NCBI GenBank assembly: GCA_902797695.1
Contig: CADBTW010000062.1
Span: 1 to 33,852 of the forward strand
Origin: an uncultured Sutterellaceae bacterium
GTDB lineage: Bacteria > Pseudomonadota > Gammaproteobacteria > Burkholderiales > Burkholderiaceae_F
Direction: 5' to 3'
Length of the DNA: 33,852 nt
Made by a program: the position numbers and the translations under genes. How positions within the stretch are numbered: the first letter of the stretch is position 1; the number at the start of each line of letters is the position of its first letter. Of this stretch, positions 430 to 18,928 are shown piece by piece. A model generated the notes under the pieces. It had not been told where the DNA came from and ran no database searches. It worked only from the letters and a program-made list of their open reading frames with translations.

Positions 430-1221
430 ATGGCGAAGCCCCTGATCCTTGTCACGGTTGGAGCCGGAAGGGATCCGGACCGGGCAGTGTCCGCCCCGGT
501 TGTCGTTCCCCTCGGGCTTTTTCAGGCGATTTCGAAGTTTGGTGGCATTCCGTTCGTTGTTTTTGAGGAAATGGAAGCGGATCCGCGGGAGCTTGTCGAA
601 ACGTCGGACGGCGTCGTGATCGCGGGCGGTCCCGACGTTTCGCCGATTCTCTATGGTGAAATGCCCCACCCGGGGCTCGGGAAAACCTTTTATCAGCGAG
701 ATCGGTTCGAATTCAGGCTTGTGCGGCACGCGATCGAAGCCGGGAGGCCGGTTCTCGGGATCTGCCGAGGAATGCAGGTCGTGAACGCCGCAATGGGCGG
801 GACGCTCTGGCAAGATCTCTCGGAATTCCCGGGCGGAACGGGGGAGCACGCGCAGAAGGGCGACCCGTCCGATCCCTTCCACGAGGTCCAAATCGCGGAA
901 GGAACCCGGCTCCGCGAGGTGCTCGGAGACCGCGCTGTCGTGAATTCTCGCCACCACGAGGCGGTAAAGGACGTTGCCCCTGGCTTTTGCGTGATCGCTG
1001 TTGCGCCTGATGGTGTGATCGAGGCGATCGAATCGGAAACGGCTCCGGTTCTCTGCGTGCAGTGGCACCCGAAAGACCTTTGGCAACGTGACGATAAAGA
1101 AGAACTGCTTTTCAGGCTTTTTGTCCGGCGGTGCGCTAAAGAAACAGGAACGCGCCTGAAAATCGGGTCTGATCCGCGCACACAGGTACCAGATGATATC
1201 TTTCCGAGAGAGGACTTCTGA
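430..1221 (+). CDS. Class I glutamine amidotransferase-like hydrolase (peptidase C26, PuuD-like)
   Basis: A 263-residue protein of the gamma-glutamyl-GABA hydrolase/PuuD family, whose members hydrolyse gamma-glutamyl amides. The nucleophile elbow GICRGMQ places the catalytic Cys at about residue 112. The histidine lies in VQWHP near residue 213, and the IAGGPDVSP loop near residue 65 forms the usual oxyanion region. The start follows a GGGGGAGAAA ribosome site, 12 bp after the GT9 gene, so it probably belongs to the same + strand unit. The residue after HP is Lys, where the family normally has the triad Glu (HPE), so activity may be altered. No polyamine genes are nearby, so the substrate is unknown. 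Confidence 0.85.
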   Translation: MAKPLILVTVGAGRDPDRAVSAPVVVPLGLFQAISKFGGIPFVVFEEMEADPRELVETSDGVVIAGGPDVSPILYGEMPHPGLGKTFYQRDRFEFRLVRHAIEAGRPVLGICRGMQVVNAAMGGTLWQDLSEFPGGTGEHAQKGDPSDPFHEVQIAEGTRLREVLGDRAVVNSRHHEAVKDVAPGFCVIAVAPDGVIEAIESETAPVLCVQWHPKDLWQRDDKEELLFRLFVRRCAKETGTRLKIGSDPRTQVPDDIFPREDF

Positions 1222-1233
1222 GGAGGAGTGGAA

Positions 1234-2043
1234 ATGAGCGGACTCGCAATGGGATCGGACGGGGTTCTCCGTTATGAGGTTTCCGAAAAGGGAATCACGA
1301 TCGGGGAAGGGCTTCCCGGGATTCTCGTCTCGGCGTCCGGCAGGACGCCCGGTGAGATCCTCGGCGCGGCCGAGGCCCTCGCCCGTGACCCTGACGTCGA
1401 CGGGATCGAGCTCCGGCTTGACGGCCTCGACAGCGGGCGGAATTCCGACGAGATCCTCGCGCTCTGCAACCTCGTGAACAGCGCCTGGGAAAAGGCGGGT
1501 GGGAAGCTTCTCATCACAACGGTCCGCACGAAGGCGGAAGGGGGAGCCGCGTCCTACTCGGAACCCGAATACCTGAGGCTCATCGGCAGCCTCGTGCGGT
1601 TCGCCCGCATGGATCTTGTCGACATCGAGTCGTCGCACGACCCGAGGGTTGTTTCAGAGCTTGTCAGCGCGGCGCATGGCGCTTCGGTCGGTGTCATCAT
1701 GAGCTGCCACAACTTTTCCGAAACACCGTCTGTTTCCGACATGCTCGGAATCCTGAGGCGCGAGAAGGCGCTCGGGGGCGATATCGAGAAGCTCGCCGTG
1801 ATGCCGCGGAGCGCGGAAGACGTCGCGTCGCTTCTTCTCGCGACCGCTCAGGCGAAAACCGAGGGCCTCGGGCCCCTCATCACGATGTCGATGGGGTCTC
1901 TTGGCTCTATTTCCCGGATCGCGGGAGGGACGTTCGGGTCCTCGCTCACCTTCGCGATGGCGGGGAAGGCGTCTGCCCCGGGCCAAATGGCGGTGAAGGA
2001 CGTAAGGGTCGCGCTTTGTCTTCTCGCTTCGAAACGGCATTGA
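1234..2043 (+). CDS. aroD: 3-dehydroquinate dehydratase, type I
   Basis: Class I dehydroquinase of the shikimate pathway, converting 3-dehydroquinate to 3-dehydroshikimate through a Schiff base. The 269-residue protein has the GIELRLD strand motif, the catalytic His in SCHNF (His159) and the Schiff-base Lys in KLAVMP (Lys186). Their 27-residue spacing equals that of His143 and Lys170 in E. coli AroD. The ATG at 1234 is preferred because AGGAGG at 1221-1226 lies seven bases upstream; a GTG at 1228 is too close to it. The gene starts 12 bp after the amidotransferase stop, so the two are probably co-transcribed. It is separated from other shikimate genes. Confidence 0.93.
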   Translation: MSGLAMGSDGVLRYEVSEKGITIGEGLPGILVSASGRTPGEILGAAEALARDPDVDGIELRLDGLDSGRNSDEILALCNLVNSAWEKAGGKLLITTVRTKAEGGAASYSEPEYLRLIGSLVRFARMDLVDIESSHDPRVVSELVSAAHGASVGVIMSCHNFSETPSVSDMLGILRREKALGGDIEKLAVMPRSAEDVASLLLATAQAKTEGLGPLITMSMGSLGSISRIAGGTFGSSLTFAMAGKASAPGQMAVKDVRVALCLLASKRH

Positions 2044-2084
2044 TCTGGGGCTCGGCGTGCCGGCTGCAATTTCGCGGGCTTTTG

Positions 2085-2116
2085 TTGACAGACCCGCAGT
2101 CAGGTCCGGAAAATAC
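2085..2116 (+). promoter_or_regulatory. Possible promoter of the glycosyltransferase pair
   Basis: A perfect TTGACA at 2085-2090 lies in the 121-bp gap before the first GT2 gene. The downstream AAAATAC stretch around 2110-2116 could be a weak -10 at 18-20 bp spacing. The -35 element is good but the -10 is poor, so this is tentative. Confidence 0.3.
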
Positions 2117-2164
2117 CGGGATACGGGGCGTCTGACCCCATTTTCCAAAGGGAAGGAGCTGTAA

Positions 2165-3181
2165 TTGGCGGCTATGGATATCGAAAACCTGGAGAATTCT
2201 CGCGGGTGCGAGCCGAGAGTCGCGATTGTCCTTCCGGTCTTCAATGTCGAGCGATATCTTCCGGAATGCCTTGATTCACTGCTCGCACAGACCTACGGCA
2301 ACTTTGAAATCATCGCTGTGAACGATGGATCGACAGATGGGAGCGGAGCAGTGCTCGCTTCTTACTCTGTCCGGCATCCGCGTCTTCATGTGGTCACGCA
2401 GCAGAATGGAGGGCTAGCCGCTGCGCGCAACACAGCCTTGGGCAGGATTGAAGAAAACGGAACCTTCGACTATGTTTCGTTTGTCGACAGCGATGACCGT
2501 GTCGAACCGGTTTTCATCGCAGAGCTTGTGGCGGCAGCGGAAAAGAGTAATGCCGACATCGCGTGCTGCGGTTACTACAAGTTTGACGAAAGCAGGCGGT
2601 GGACCGAAGGGACCAAGCGGGAAGCCTGTAGCTTTGGGCCGGAGGAATATGCCGAACTCGTCTTTTCCGTAAGGGACTGGCGCCACGTGAATGGCGGCGG
2701 TGGCATGGTCTGGAAGTGCCTTTTCAGGGAAAAGACAGTTTCGGGCCTTCGGTTTCCTGAAGACCGCAGGGTTCTGGAGGACGAGCCTTACTGCGTTCTC
2801 GCTGCCGGACGTTCCAGCAGCGTTGCCTTTGTTCCAGACACGTTGTATGGGTACCGCATGCGGGCGAATTCGCTCATCCGGCAGGAAAGCTTTGAACTGG
2901 CAAAGCTTAACGCCCGCCGCCTTTGCCTCGATTCCGCATCGAATGCCCCGGAACGGGTCCGGAACGCAATTTCAGGGGAATTTGCAGGAGCATTCCTCTC
3001 CTTCGTCCGGAGGACAGGGAAATATCCTGACTTCGATCTGACCCCTTATTTACCTGCCGTGAGCCAGGCAGCAAAGGCAGGATATCTTCCACAGAGCCGG
3101 TTTCTGAAATTCAGGCTGTTCTGCTCCTTGCCTGCTCTTGCGAGGCTATATCATCAGCTTTTCGTCCGAAGGGTAAAGTAG
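2165..3181 (+). CDS. Glycosyltransferase family 2
   Basis: A 338-residue GT-A fold glycosyltransferase of the WcaA/EpsJ type, probably transferring a sugar from a nucleotide donor during LPS core or surface polysaccharide assembly. The N-terminal motif VAIVLPVFNVERYLPECLDS is followed by the nucleotide-binding VNDGSTDGS and a metal-binding DSDD near residue 110. There is no signal peptide or membrane span, so it is cytoplasmic or peripheral. The start is TTG at 2165, six bases after AGGAG at 2154-2158; an in-frame ATG at 2174 would be 15 bases away, too far. A second GT2 gene follows after 17 bp. The sugar and acceptor cannot be read from sequence. Confidence 0.9.
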   Translation: MAAMDIENLENSRGCEPRVAIVLPVFNVERYLPECLDSLLAQTYGNFEIIAVNDGSTDGSGAVLASYSVRHPRLHVVTQQNGGLAAARNTALGRIEENGTFDYVSFVDSDDRVEPVFIAELVAAAEKSNADIACCGYYKFDESRRWTEGTKREACSFGPEEYAELVFSVRDWRHVNGGGGMVWKCLFREKTVSGLRFPEDRRVLEDEPYCVLAAGRSSSVAFVPDTLYGYRMRANSLIRQESFELAKLNARRLCLDSASNAPERVRNAISGEFAGAFLSFVRRTGKYPDFDLTPYLPAVSQAAKAGYLPQSRFLKFRLFCSLPALARLYHQLFVRRVK

Positions 3182-16499: not shown

Positions 16500-17060
16500 T
16501 TTTTCTGTTTCCTATCGTGCGCCGGCTGCGAAGAGTGGTTTTTTTCGTTCCCCGAGGGAAGGAGGGACATCGCGCGGCATTTTCGGTGGATTTTACTGAC
16601 TCTTTTCCGGTTGGTGCTAAGGGAAACGGAAGGGACGAAATGGAAAGTAATTGTTAAGCCGCCCCACTAATCTGATTCATTGGATAAAATTAAAAATTCC
16701 CGGAGTTTTTCCGAAGAGGCTTCGCCAGTGGCCCGTGAATGTCGCGGCTCGAGACCTCTTCGGTCCGTCGGTCGTTCCGCCTTTTGCGGAGGCTGGCCGT
16801 AATTCCGGGACCCTTCCCGCCGCGGGACGCGCTGCCCGGGGCAATGGGGCTCCTCTTCCGGGGGAGGCCTGGAAGGGAAACCGCGGCGCGTTTTGCCCTT
16901 CCTGTTCTCCGCCTTTCCCTTTTTTACGAAAAGCGGACCCGGGCGAAGAGCGGGCTTTACAGCCCGTTCGTATAGTTCGCACCGGAAGCAGAAAGGACAG
17001 TTGGTAAAAGATGGCCGCCAGCAGAGCAGGCGGCACAAAAATAAGAAAGAGGTATTGCAA
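16500..17060. other. 560-bp gene-free region with many inverted repeats
   Basis: No coding sequence fits. CCGAAGAG (16711-16718) pairs with CTCTTCGG (16756-16763). TCCGC-GCGGA, CCCGC-GCGGG and GGAAGGG (16871-16877)-CCCTTCC (16896-16902) hairpins follow, the last one 17 nt before a T6 run (16920-16925). CGGGCT-TTAC-AGCCCG (16951-16966) precedes a TATAGT at 16971-16976. The density of stems suggests a structured leader for the small gene at 17061 or an independent RNA. Confidence 0.45.
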
Positions 17061-17240
17061 ATGACTGAAAGGAAAATCGAAACGAAGGACAGCGCCTTCG
17101 TGAAGAAGATGATGGAAAGAATCGCGGCCCGCGTTGCAGCGAAGCGCGAAGCAGGTGACGACCGGTGCGCGAATCCGCGCGACCGCGCCTGGCTCGAGGC
17201 CCTGAAGGGAATCGACGCCGCGTACGGGGTCGCCGCGTGA
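17061..17240 (+). CDS. Small hypothetical protein (59 aa)
   Basis: A 59-residue, highly charged, mostly helical protein beginning MTERKIETKDSAFVKK, without a signal peptide or membrane span. I do not recognise the family. The ATG is preceded by AAGAAAGAGG at a suitable distance. The same frame is open further upstream (to 16893), but that part is Arg/Ser-rich, overlaps the structured region and looks non-coding. A strong + strand terminator follows about 110 bp after the stop. The residues MMERIAARVAAKR form a basic amphipathic helix that could bind RNA or protein, which is inference only. Confidence 0.6.
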   Translation: MTERKIETKDSAFVKKMMERIAARVAAKREAGDDRCANPRDRAWLEALKGIDAAYGVAA

Positions 17241-17352
17241 CCCGGAGCTAGCGGAAAGTGCGGAGACGCATCCGCTTCCCGGTTCGGGATTACCCAATAC
17301 ACGTAACGCCCCTTCCCAGTCCCCGAGTCCGGGGACATTCCCCGGACAAGTG

Positions 17353-17385
17353 CCGCCCTCAGCCCCCGTGGCTCAGGGCGGTTTT
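17353..17385 (+). terminator. Terminator after the small CDS, nested in an outer stem
   Basis: CCGCCCTCAGCC (17353-17364) pairs with GGCTCAGGGCGG (17370-17381) with one mismatch and is followed by TTTT. An outer stem, CCGGACAAG with CTTGTCCGG, encloses it. Another hairpin, GTCCCCG-AGTC-CGGGGAC, lies just upstream. Confidence 0.7.
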
Positions 17386-17464
17386 CCTTGTCCGGCAGTT
17401 TATTTGCCAACGTTCCTTAGCTTGTAATGGCTAAATAAAACCGCCTAGAAGTCTCTCGATTTTC

Positions 17465-17493
17465 TTGACTGTAACAATTCCTTTCTTTATTCT
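17465..17493 (+). promoter_or_regulatory. Sigma-70 promoter of yjiH-yjiG
   Basis: TTGACT (17465-17470) and TATTCT (17488-17493) are separated by exactly 17 bp. This is the best -35/-10 pair in the window. Transcription should begin near 17500, leaving about 250 nt of leader before yjiH. Confidence 0.65.
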
Positions 17494-17499
17494 TCCGGG

Positions 17500-17748
17500 C
17501 TTGGTACCGGGGAAACCCGGTCGGAAAAGTCCGTGTTTCCTGCTTTCGCCTGAAGCAGCGGTGCGGGCCGGTTGCCCGGGAAGGAAAGGCATCGCTTTTC
17601 CCTGACCTTCCGGGTTTCTACCAAAAGGCGGGGGGCTGCGTTCAGGGCCTCCCATTCTTTTTATTCCGTCTGTACCAAGGCTCCCGCCGACAATAGTTTC
17701 CCGAAGAGGAAGCGGCGGGGAAAGTGCCTTGCTCAGGGAGTTTTTTTC
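17500..17748 (+). ncRNA. Structured leader RNA of yjiH-yjiG (candidate cis-regulatory element)
   Basis: The leader contains successive hairpins: ACCGGG-GAAA-CCCGGT with a GNRA loop (17506-17521), CGGA-AAAG-TCCG (17522-17533), CTGCTT-N7-AAGCAG (17540-17558), a long CCCGGGAAGG/CCTTCCGGG stem (17575-17614), a terminator-like hairpin (17630-17662) and CCCGCCG/CGGCGGG (17683-17719). The last one sits just before the ribosome site CAGGGAG, and a T7 run separates that site from the ATG. It matches no riboswitch class whose conserved core I could recall (cobalamin, TPP, FMN, glycine, lysine). The existence of the stems is seen; a regulatory role is inferred. Confidence 0.5.
17630..17662 (+). terminator. 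Possible attenuator terminator inside the yjiH leader
   Basis: GGGGGGC (17630-17636) can pair with GCCTCCC (17647-17653), including one G-U, around a 10-nt loop. ATTC and five T residues (17658-17662) follow. It lies about 90 nt before the yjiH start, the arrangement expected of a transcription attenuator. Confidence 0.45.
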
Positions 17749-18453
17749 ATGTCTGAAGCTAAAGTAGAAGCAAGTGCTGCTGACGCAGCTCAGATGCACG
17801 GGAAGCCGAAGGCGGGAATTGGCGCTTACATCGCGTTCATCGTCGCCGTCATCATGTTCTCGGGCGTCTTCCAGAAGAACCCTGCCGGCTGGGAATGGCT
17901 GAGCGCGTTTGACTTTTCCACCTTGATCGGCAAGTTCGGCTCCGTCGCGAGCATGGCTGCCGGCAAGGCCACCACGTTTGTCGGCAAGGGCTACATGGGT
18001 GCCCGCGGCGGCTTCGTCTTCGGCCTCTCGCTCGTCCCGGGCGTGATGTTCGCCCTCGGCCTGATCGAGGTCCTTGCGCACTACGGCGCTCTCCGCGCCG
18101 CGCAGGTCCTCCTCACCCCGCTCCTCAAGCCGATCCTTGGCCTTCCGGGCCTTACCGGCCTCGCCCTGATCACTGACCTCCAGTCGACCGACGCTGGCGC
18201 CGGCCTCACGAAGGGCCTGATGGACTCCGGGCTCATCAACCAGAAGCAGCTTGTCACGATGTGCGCCTGGCAGTACGCGGGCGCCGGCTGCATCAGCAAC
18301 TTCATGACCACCGTGGTCGGCGGCCTCCTCACCTGGTTCCTCGTTCCGATCTGGGTTCCGATGGTCGTCTTCCTCATCCTGAAGTTCGTGGGCGCGTTCC
18401 TCGTCCGCATGATGCTTTCCACCGTTTACAAGAAGGACTTCCAAAATGAGTAA
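17749..18453 (+). CDS. yjiH: YjiH-like nucleoside-recognition (Gate) membrane protein
   Basis: A 234-residue membrane protein similar in size and order to E. coli YjiH (227 residues), with four to six hydrophobic segments and a Gate-type core (LITDLQSTDAGAGLTKGLMDSG, then MCAWQYAGAGCISNFMTTVVGG). Gate-domain proteins form pairs and are thought to move or sense small solutes; the substrate is unknown. The ATG at 17749 is chosen over in-frame upstream starts because CAGGGAG lies eight bases before it and the upstream frame covers the structured leader. The gene overlaps yjiG by 8 bp. Its near-exclusive GGC glycine codons, unlike most neighbours, suggest strong expression. Confidence 0.82.
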   Translation: MSEAKVEASAADAAQMHGKPKAGIGAYIAFIVAVIMFSGVFQKNPAGWEWLSAFDFSTLIGKFGSVASMAAGKATTFVGKGYMGARGGFVFGLSLVPGVMFALGLIEVLAHYGALRAAQVLLTPLLKPILGLPGLTGLALITDLQSTDAGAGLTKGLMDSGLINQKQLVTMCAWQYAGAGCISNFMTTVVGGLLTWFLVPIWVPMVVFLILKFVGAFLVRMMLSTVYKKDFQNE

Positions 18454-18928
18454 CGCCGCTCCCGCCCAGACCCAGAAGCAGACGAACAATCCGTTCGACA
18501 TCTTCATCATCGGGTGCCGCAAGGGCTTCAACCTCGGCTGCTTCAACCTCATTCCGAACGTCCTGATGGCGTTCGTGATCACCTACCTCCTGCAGATCCT
18601 CGGCGTGATGGACTTCATCGGCCGCACCTGCGGCGGGTTCATGGCGCTCTTCGGCCTTCCGGGCCAGGCGATCCTCGTGCTCTGCGCGACGTGGCTCTCC
18701 TGCGGCGCCGGTGTCGGCGTCGCCGCGTCTCTCGCCTCTGCCGGGACGCTCACTGCCCATGACGTCACGATCATGCTGCCGGCCCTCATTCTGATGGCCT
18801 CCCAGATCCAGTACATGGGCCGTCTGCTCGGCATCACCGACTGCCCGAAGAAGTACTGGCCGATGCTCATGGTGAACTCCGTCCTCATGGCGTTCATCGG
18901 CATGGAGGCAATGCATCTCTTCGTCTGA
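18446..18928 (+). CDS. yjiG: YjiG family membrane protein
   Basis: A 160-residue membrane protein matching the YjiG family (E. coli 153 residues), with four hydrophobic spans and the Gate-type LPGQAILVLCATWLSCGAGVG block. It starts inside the end of yjiH (ATGAGTAA overlap), so the two are translationally coupled and probably form one complex. In E. coli the pair lies beside iadA (isoaspartyl dipeptidase); no such gene is present here, so that link is not supported in this genome. Like yjiH it uses C-ending codons heavily. Two hairpins, the second a terminator, follow. Confidence 0.85.
   Translation: MSNAAPAQTQKQTNNPFDIFIIGCRKGFNLGCFNLIPNVLMAFVITYLLQILGVMDFIGRTCGGFMALFGLPGQAILVLCATWLSCGAGVGVAASLASAGTLTAHDVTIMLPALILMASQIQYMGRLLGITDCPKKYWPMLMVNSVLMAFIGMEAMHLFV

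Follow-up and report, generated by a model that had tools for sequence, protein, structure and literature searches.

The yjiHG locus and its promoter

The window, by which we mean the whole 33,852-nucleotide stretch of DNA from an uncultured Sutterellaceae bacterium of the gut that was analysed, contains yjiH (17749..18453) and yjiG (18446..18928), both on the plus strand. They encode a transporter-like pair that is also present in distant bacteria; each carries the Gate domain PF07670, and YjiG scores above the NCBIfam PRK10519 cut-off. The pair is flanked by a Na+/H+ antiporter-family gene (PF03553) and a DJ-1/PfpI gene. A small frame of 59 amino acids without a Pfam match lies at 17061-17240, and weak similarity to it was found in the yjiH upstream regions of D. 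massiliensis (27%, E 0.009) and M. multiformis (27%, E 0.16).

In the literature searched, titles and abstract openings neither name the substrate of YjiHG nor treat a leader of yjiHG. The homologous gene pair of Escherichia coli belongs to the yjiHG-iadA operon, which is named in a table row on RpoD promoters; that row holds no leader or promoter sequence assignable to the operon (PMC3946193). Gene content was compared at ten distant yjiHG loci, eight of which (L053, L056, L061, L071, L074, L075, L082 and L101) have M20-family peptidase genes nearby: nine peptidase-looking proteins were found, and all nine match PF01546 (Peptidase_M20), a lead and not a frequency, given that we picked the proteins for their peptidase look and the loci by hand. 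These M20 peptidase neighbours hint that the YjiHG substrate is peptide-related. An M20-like frame, named by inspection, also lies upstream of yjiH in M. porci (L036:1387-2541).

Upstream of yjiH, a sigma-70-type promoter (TTGACT-N17-TATTCT, 9/12 matches) occupies 17465..17493 on the plus strand, with TTGACT at 17465-17470 and TATTCT at 17488-17493. It had been proposed in the first-pass annotation, and a scan of 17000-18000 finds this sigma-70-type site and no other, where 0.2 would be expected. The -10 hexamer ends 255 nt upstream of the yjiH ATG (17749), and the predicted 5' leader of yjiHG spans 17500..17748 (plus strand) if transcription starts about 7 nt past the -10. A Shine-Dalgarno (SD) sequence, AGGGAG, lies at 17735..17740 (plus strand), 8 nt upstream of the ATG.

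This arrangement was compared across five Mesosutterella genomes (hereafter the genus set): that of the window, M. multiformis (G002), M. massiliensis (Dakarella/Mesosutterella; G003), M. porci (G004) and G001. Their leaders form three lineages, namely the window, multiformis/massiliensis and porci/G001. Both promoter hexamers, with a spacer of 17 or 18, are kept in all five genomes, and the -10 ends 246-258 nt before the ATG. Two other relatives (L015 and L124) carry a similar promoter whose -10 lies just 31-33 nt before the yjiH ATG, with the motif TTGAC(T/A)GCAACA 61-62 nt before the ATG; the counterpart of this motif in the window and M. porci is TTGACTGTAACA. These two relatives have no long leader, which speaks against a general need for it.

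The yjiH upstream region of D. massiliensis has an insertion of about 1.9 kb (L038:711-2638), with the break 362 nt before the ATG. It carries a 599-codon frame (734-2530, minus strand) that is presumably transposase-like.

Hairpins of the leader and the terminator-like element

The first-pass annotation had described a leader of about 250 nt with at least five hairpins. The length holds (255 nt from the -10 to the ATG), and the count of five comes from predicted folds. Three of the hairpins were named from the letters and are present, all on the plus strand. P1 (17506..17521), seen in both the sequence and the nascent fold, is the hairpin with a GAAA tetraloop, ACCGGG-GAAA-CCCGGT. P4 (17624..17662), the putative attenuator, is the terminator-like hairpin, which had been placed about 90 nt before the start codon; it reads AAAGG-C-GGGGGGC...GCCTCCC-ATT-CTTT and runs into a T5 tract. 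Its core stem covers 17630-17653, pairing of the A-tract with the U-tract extends it to 17624-17660, and the T5 tract at 17658-17662 lies about 87 nt before the ATG. P5 (17683..17719) pairs CCCGCCG (17683-17689) with CGGCGGG (17713-17719) between the terminator-like hairpin and the SD and adjoins the ribosome site; in the other two lineages, the predicted folds place a hairpin of different sequence here. The hairpin regions P2 (17529..17568) and P3 (17570..17622), on the same strand, are predicted in the nascent fold only.

In all three genus lineages, the predicted nascent transcripts form a row of hairpins that ends in the terminator-like hairpin; in the window, the row is enclosed by one further 5-bp helix. 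Folds that pair the SD with the 5' end of the transcript were set aside, as they used bases upstream of the likely start. On its own, the leader of the window is scarcely more stable than dinucleotide shuffles and hardly beyond chance (minimum free energy (MFE) z -0.98, -1.5 or -1.63 in three runs), and the M. porci leader is not significantly stable either (z -1.35 or -0.54). The leaders of M. multiformis and M. massiliensis reach z -3.4 and -3.2, and across 29 family regions the fold z of the 240 nt before yjiH ranges from +1.0 to -4.5. The main weakness of the case is that the window leader stands without close relatives, so that the sister species have to supply its inferred structure.

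The position of the terminator-like hairpin is shared by these leaders. In all five genus genomes, and thus in three diverged lineages, the strongest such hairpin (dG -15.0 to -18.3) ends 78-100 nt before the ATG, some 160-170 nt from the promoter. Within 17000-18000 of the window, four terminator-like sites were found on the two strands together (1.8 +/- 1.5 expected). As a control, we took 312 kb of M. massiliensis and its M. multiformis counterpart, the Mesosutterella pair that also supplied the intergenic controls below; 271 conserved frames, some of which are surely not genes, gave 73 upstream regions, each 250 nt or longer, of which 66 were used and 7 were left out as duplicates or because the aligned block was too short. 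An equivalent hairpin occurs in the position range in 5 of the 66 in M. massiliensis and in 3 in both species, yjiH being counted each time. A terminator-like hairpin at the same place, which was chosen after seeing the data, appears in 23, 8 and 24 of 200 shuffled leaders of the three lineages, and the best terminator-like site anywhere in the leader is equalled in 6/40 shuffles for the window and in 3, 5, 13 and 10 of 40 for the other genus leaders.

In predicted nascent transcripts, the terminator pairs form with a mean probability of 0.81-0.98. In the full-length minimum-energy folds, four of the genus leaders keep all or most of them (13/13, 12/12, 8/10 and 8/10 pairs), and in that of M. 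multiformis the hairpin is absent (0/12). The simple hairpin before T6 in M. porci has just -13.7, and the value of -15.1 belongs to an alternative, overlapping fold; M. multiformis and M. massiliensis have a weak U-tract (ATATTTCTT). No antiterminator pairing common to the lineages was seen on inspection by eye. A terminator-like hairpin followed by a U-tract, weak in two species, is predicted between promoter and gene in 5/5 genus genomes. For the possible attenuator of the first-pass annotation, this means support from three features kept across the genus, namely the promoter, the long leader and the attenuator-like hairpin, with termination itself as a prediction.

M. porci and G001 also have a second yjiH copy (L031 and L032, reverse-complemented), preceded by a hairpin-rich region in which a G+C-rich stem and then T5-6 can be recognized by eye.

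Substitutions in sister leaders

The leaders of M. multiformis and M. massiliensis are 94% identical and differ by 14 substitutions. Eight of these fall at paired positions of the consensus fold, where standard pairing is kept in every case; two of the eight together make a compensatory A-U to G-C change in the stem of the terminator-like hairpin, and the other six substitutions are unpaired. When the substitutions were placed at random, the observed consensus energy was reached in 4/1000 placements. The yjiH leader also ranks first of 42 intergenic upstream regions in this pairing test (z -2.58; next -2.16; 60 placements each), although a first place among 42 amounts to only about P 0.02. The 42 were those of the 73 regions that offered an aligned block of 230 columns or more, 240 columns free of gaps, no more than 6 gaps and 6 or more substitutions, with duplicates removed. 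The M. porci and G001 leaders are 98.5% identical, and their 4 substitutions, 2 of them paired and kept, give no pairing signal (P 0.48).

Unusual conservation of the leader between M. multiformis and M. massiliensis was considered and not upheld: 94% is ordinary among 30 intergenic regions that are 85-99.8% identical. The stretch between the insertion break and the promoter, with 67/92 columns alike, lies below the leader.

Elsewhere in the family, the yjiHG leaders of Duodenibacillus and Sutterella differ in sequence and likewise favour pairing. The two Duodenibacillus leaders (L007 and L008) show 43 substitutions in 242 columns; 14 variable pairs are kept, 7 of them through changes on both sides where about 2.2 are expected, and random placement reaches the observed energy in 7/240 and 0/240 cases (two directions). 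In the Sutterella pair (L006 and L121), which has 8 substitutions, it does so in 5/240. The SD of both Sutterella leaders sits in a very stable helix, with an opening energy of 11-12 kcal/mol and 0/100 shuffles as closed. Queried with the window and Duodenibacillus leaders, DNA and model searches detected no relation to other leaders. The covarying stems that the first-pass annotation wished to see among Sutterellaceae leaders are thus found in part, in the form of changes that preserve pairing inside species pairs from three genera, without a core common to the lineages.

Two side observations concern these leaders. In Duodenibacillus, invariant stretches such as ACCAAAACTGAGCAGATTCCTACGCAATCGCATTGAC stand beside hairpins with many compensatory changes (L007:1213-1455 and L008:1231-1473). 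In the last 282 nt before yjiH of L006 and L121 (reverse-complemented), a TTGATNNNNATCAA box, which we take to be FNR-like, lies 282 nt before the ATG.

Support beyond chance comes from the relatives, through the place of the hairpin in three lineages and the pair-preserving substitutions in sister species. We read this as selection acting on pairing more than on sequence, and it suggests that a leader can persist as a structure even as its sequence turns unrecognizable within one genus. Because of this bias towards pairing, a structural device (for termination or stability), or a leader read by a factor that sees structure, is likelier than an aptamer. On balance we lean towards a fast-evolving structured leader of attenuator type whose sequence is lineage-restricted.

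The alternative that survives best, although we think it rather unlikely, is a passive structured 5' untranslated region, in which hairpins protect the mRNA or slow its decay, the terminator-like hairpin does not terminate, and the structure of the window leader may partly be an effect of G+C-rich DNA. It would account for the unremarkable stability of the window and M. porci folds, the weak U-tract in two species, the frequency of terminator-like sites in shuffled leaders, and an SD opening energy that is like that of shuffles in 5/5 genus leaders. It fits poorly with a terminator-like hairpin at the same place in three lineages and with the compensatory change in its stem.

Riboswitch searches and the likely nature of the leader

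The first-pass annotation had raised the possibility of a riboswitch, in which a 5' hairpin domain would bind a metabolite, perhaps the YjiHG substrate, and shift the terminator. The long structured leader, the terminator-like hairpin and the transporter-like genes are compatible with this, as are the two Duodenibacillus leaders, which pair invariant stretches with covarying stems and are the most riboswitch-like of the leaders examined. The searches point the other way. Rfam 15 gave no match in the window at gathering scores, in line with the earlier remark that no riboswitch core considered there fits; at relaxed thresholds there were two weak matches, Fungi_SRP (E 1.9) and twister-P1 (E 2.1, minus strand), and in 40 of the 80 named yjiHG loci Rfam returned one tRNA and nothing else. 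The three Mesosutterella lineages have no alignable core, with a leader identity of 47-52% compared with 47-48% in the flanking 250 nt.

A DNA search of 67 family genomes with the window leader returned the leader itself and short matches. The best of these (E 6.5e-5) is in Turicimonas (L117; also L119) and was rejected, as the Turicimonas matches lie inside DNA that reads by eye as TRAP-transporter coding; M. porci and G001 were matched over the promoter only (E ~0.03). Covariance models recovered little beyond their own sequences. R1, built on the M. multiformis and M. massiliensis leaders, found its own two and 7 weak matches (E 0.087 to 5.5) in the 67 genomes, the best of which (L133) overlaps, as judged by eye, the start of another gene and the DNA just ahead of it. 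It misses the window, M. porci and G001 leaders, with one fragment in L003 (minus strand, E 0.0096). R2, built on the two Duodenibacillus leaders, recovered from the 67 genomes just these two plus a single match at E 0.79.

The binding core of a riboswitch class is preserved across distances far greater than one genus, yet here the unpaired positions change even between the sister species M. multiformis and M. massiliensis, so a small-molecule aptamer is unlikely. No ligand-binding core is conserved among the homologues, and covarying secondary structure appears within species pairs only, the M. porci/G001 pair showing none. The general layout resembles that of Rfam riboswitches on a terminator platform; the leader differs from them in having no match at gathering score and no sequence core kept within the genus. 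Together with the two relatives whose -10 lies 31-33 nt before the ATG, without a long leader, these results make a riboswitch improbable. Nothing shows the leader to be a new metabolite sensor, and it is probably a regulatory leader.

A broader reading is that yjiHG in Sutterellaceae has repeatedly come under RNA-level control by sequence-unrelated leaders that answer to one cue, possibly the transported, peptide-related substrate, as several lineage-restricted riboswitch classes with one ligand. The leader types would then be a terminator in Mesosutterella, an RBS-sequestering leader in Sutterella and another fold in Duodenibacillus. We regard this reading as speculative and its truth as quite doubtful.

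The distance of about 160-170 nt between promoter and terminator-like element would also suit a small RNA of about 160 nt that ends at this hairpin, with yjiHG expressed by read-through. No region is conserved between lineages that could serve as its seed, and constraint on structure only is unusual for a base-pairing RNA; we consider a small RNA very unlikely. Control of the terminator by a translated leader peptide is the least credible of the alternatives and was rejected: every lineage does have a short frame (6, 10 and 8 codons) that begins 38-46 nt past the first base of the -10 hexamer, but the start codons of these frames differ (GTG, ATG, GTG), their best SD matches are of 3-4 bases or none, the peptides look unrelated, the window leader has no ATG, and no conserved short open reading frame (ORF) with an SD and control codons is found in the genus leaders.

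Sequestration of the ribosome-binding site was rejected for Mesosutterella as well. In 5/5 leaders the SD is within the shuffled range (31-48 of 100 shuffles are at least as closed), and the P5 stem that adjoins the ribosome site leaves it no more buried than in shuffled leaders. Because the SD is not extra-buried and there is no conserved short ORF, the terminator-like hairpin is the most likely working part of the Mesosutterella leader.

Intrinsic-terminator attenuators in 5' leaders form a general class that consists of a promoter, a structured leader, a terminator hairpin and then the gene. The yjiHG leader is like them in its promoter, its structured leader and a terminator-like hairpin with a U-rich tail ahead of the gene; it differs in that no conserved antiterminator, leader peptide, protein site or ligand core was found. 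On the attenuator reading, transcription from a conserved promoter of housekeeping type would produce the stretch as the untranslated 5' end of the yjiHG mRNA. Its RNA would fold into a row of hairpins. Some are lineage-specific, the terminator-like one with its U-rich tail comes some 160 nt after the transcript begins, and a final one precedes the ribosome site. RNA polymerase would meet the terminator-like element, which is predicted to form by default in nascent RNA, and some transcription would end there, so that only part of it reads through to yjiHG. Computation shows the promoter, how long the leader is, where the terminator-like hairpin lies and the pair-preserving substitutions of the sister species; the transcription start, termination, partial read-through and any regulating signal are inferences.

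Searches that start from sequence would, as these comparisons suggest, miss a leader of this kind, because its structure is kept while its sequence becomes unrecognizable within one genus. A leader that controls YjiHG would offer a handle on when, and perhaps for what, YjiHG is made.
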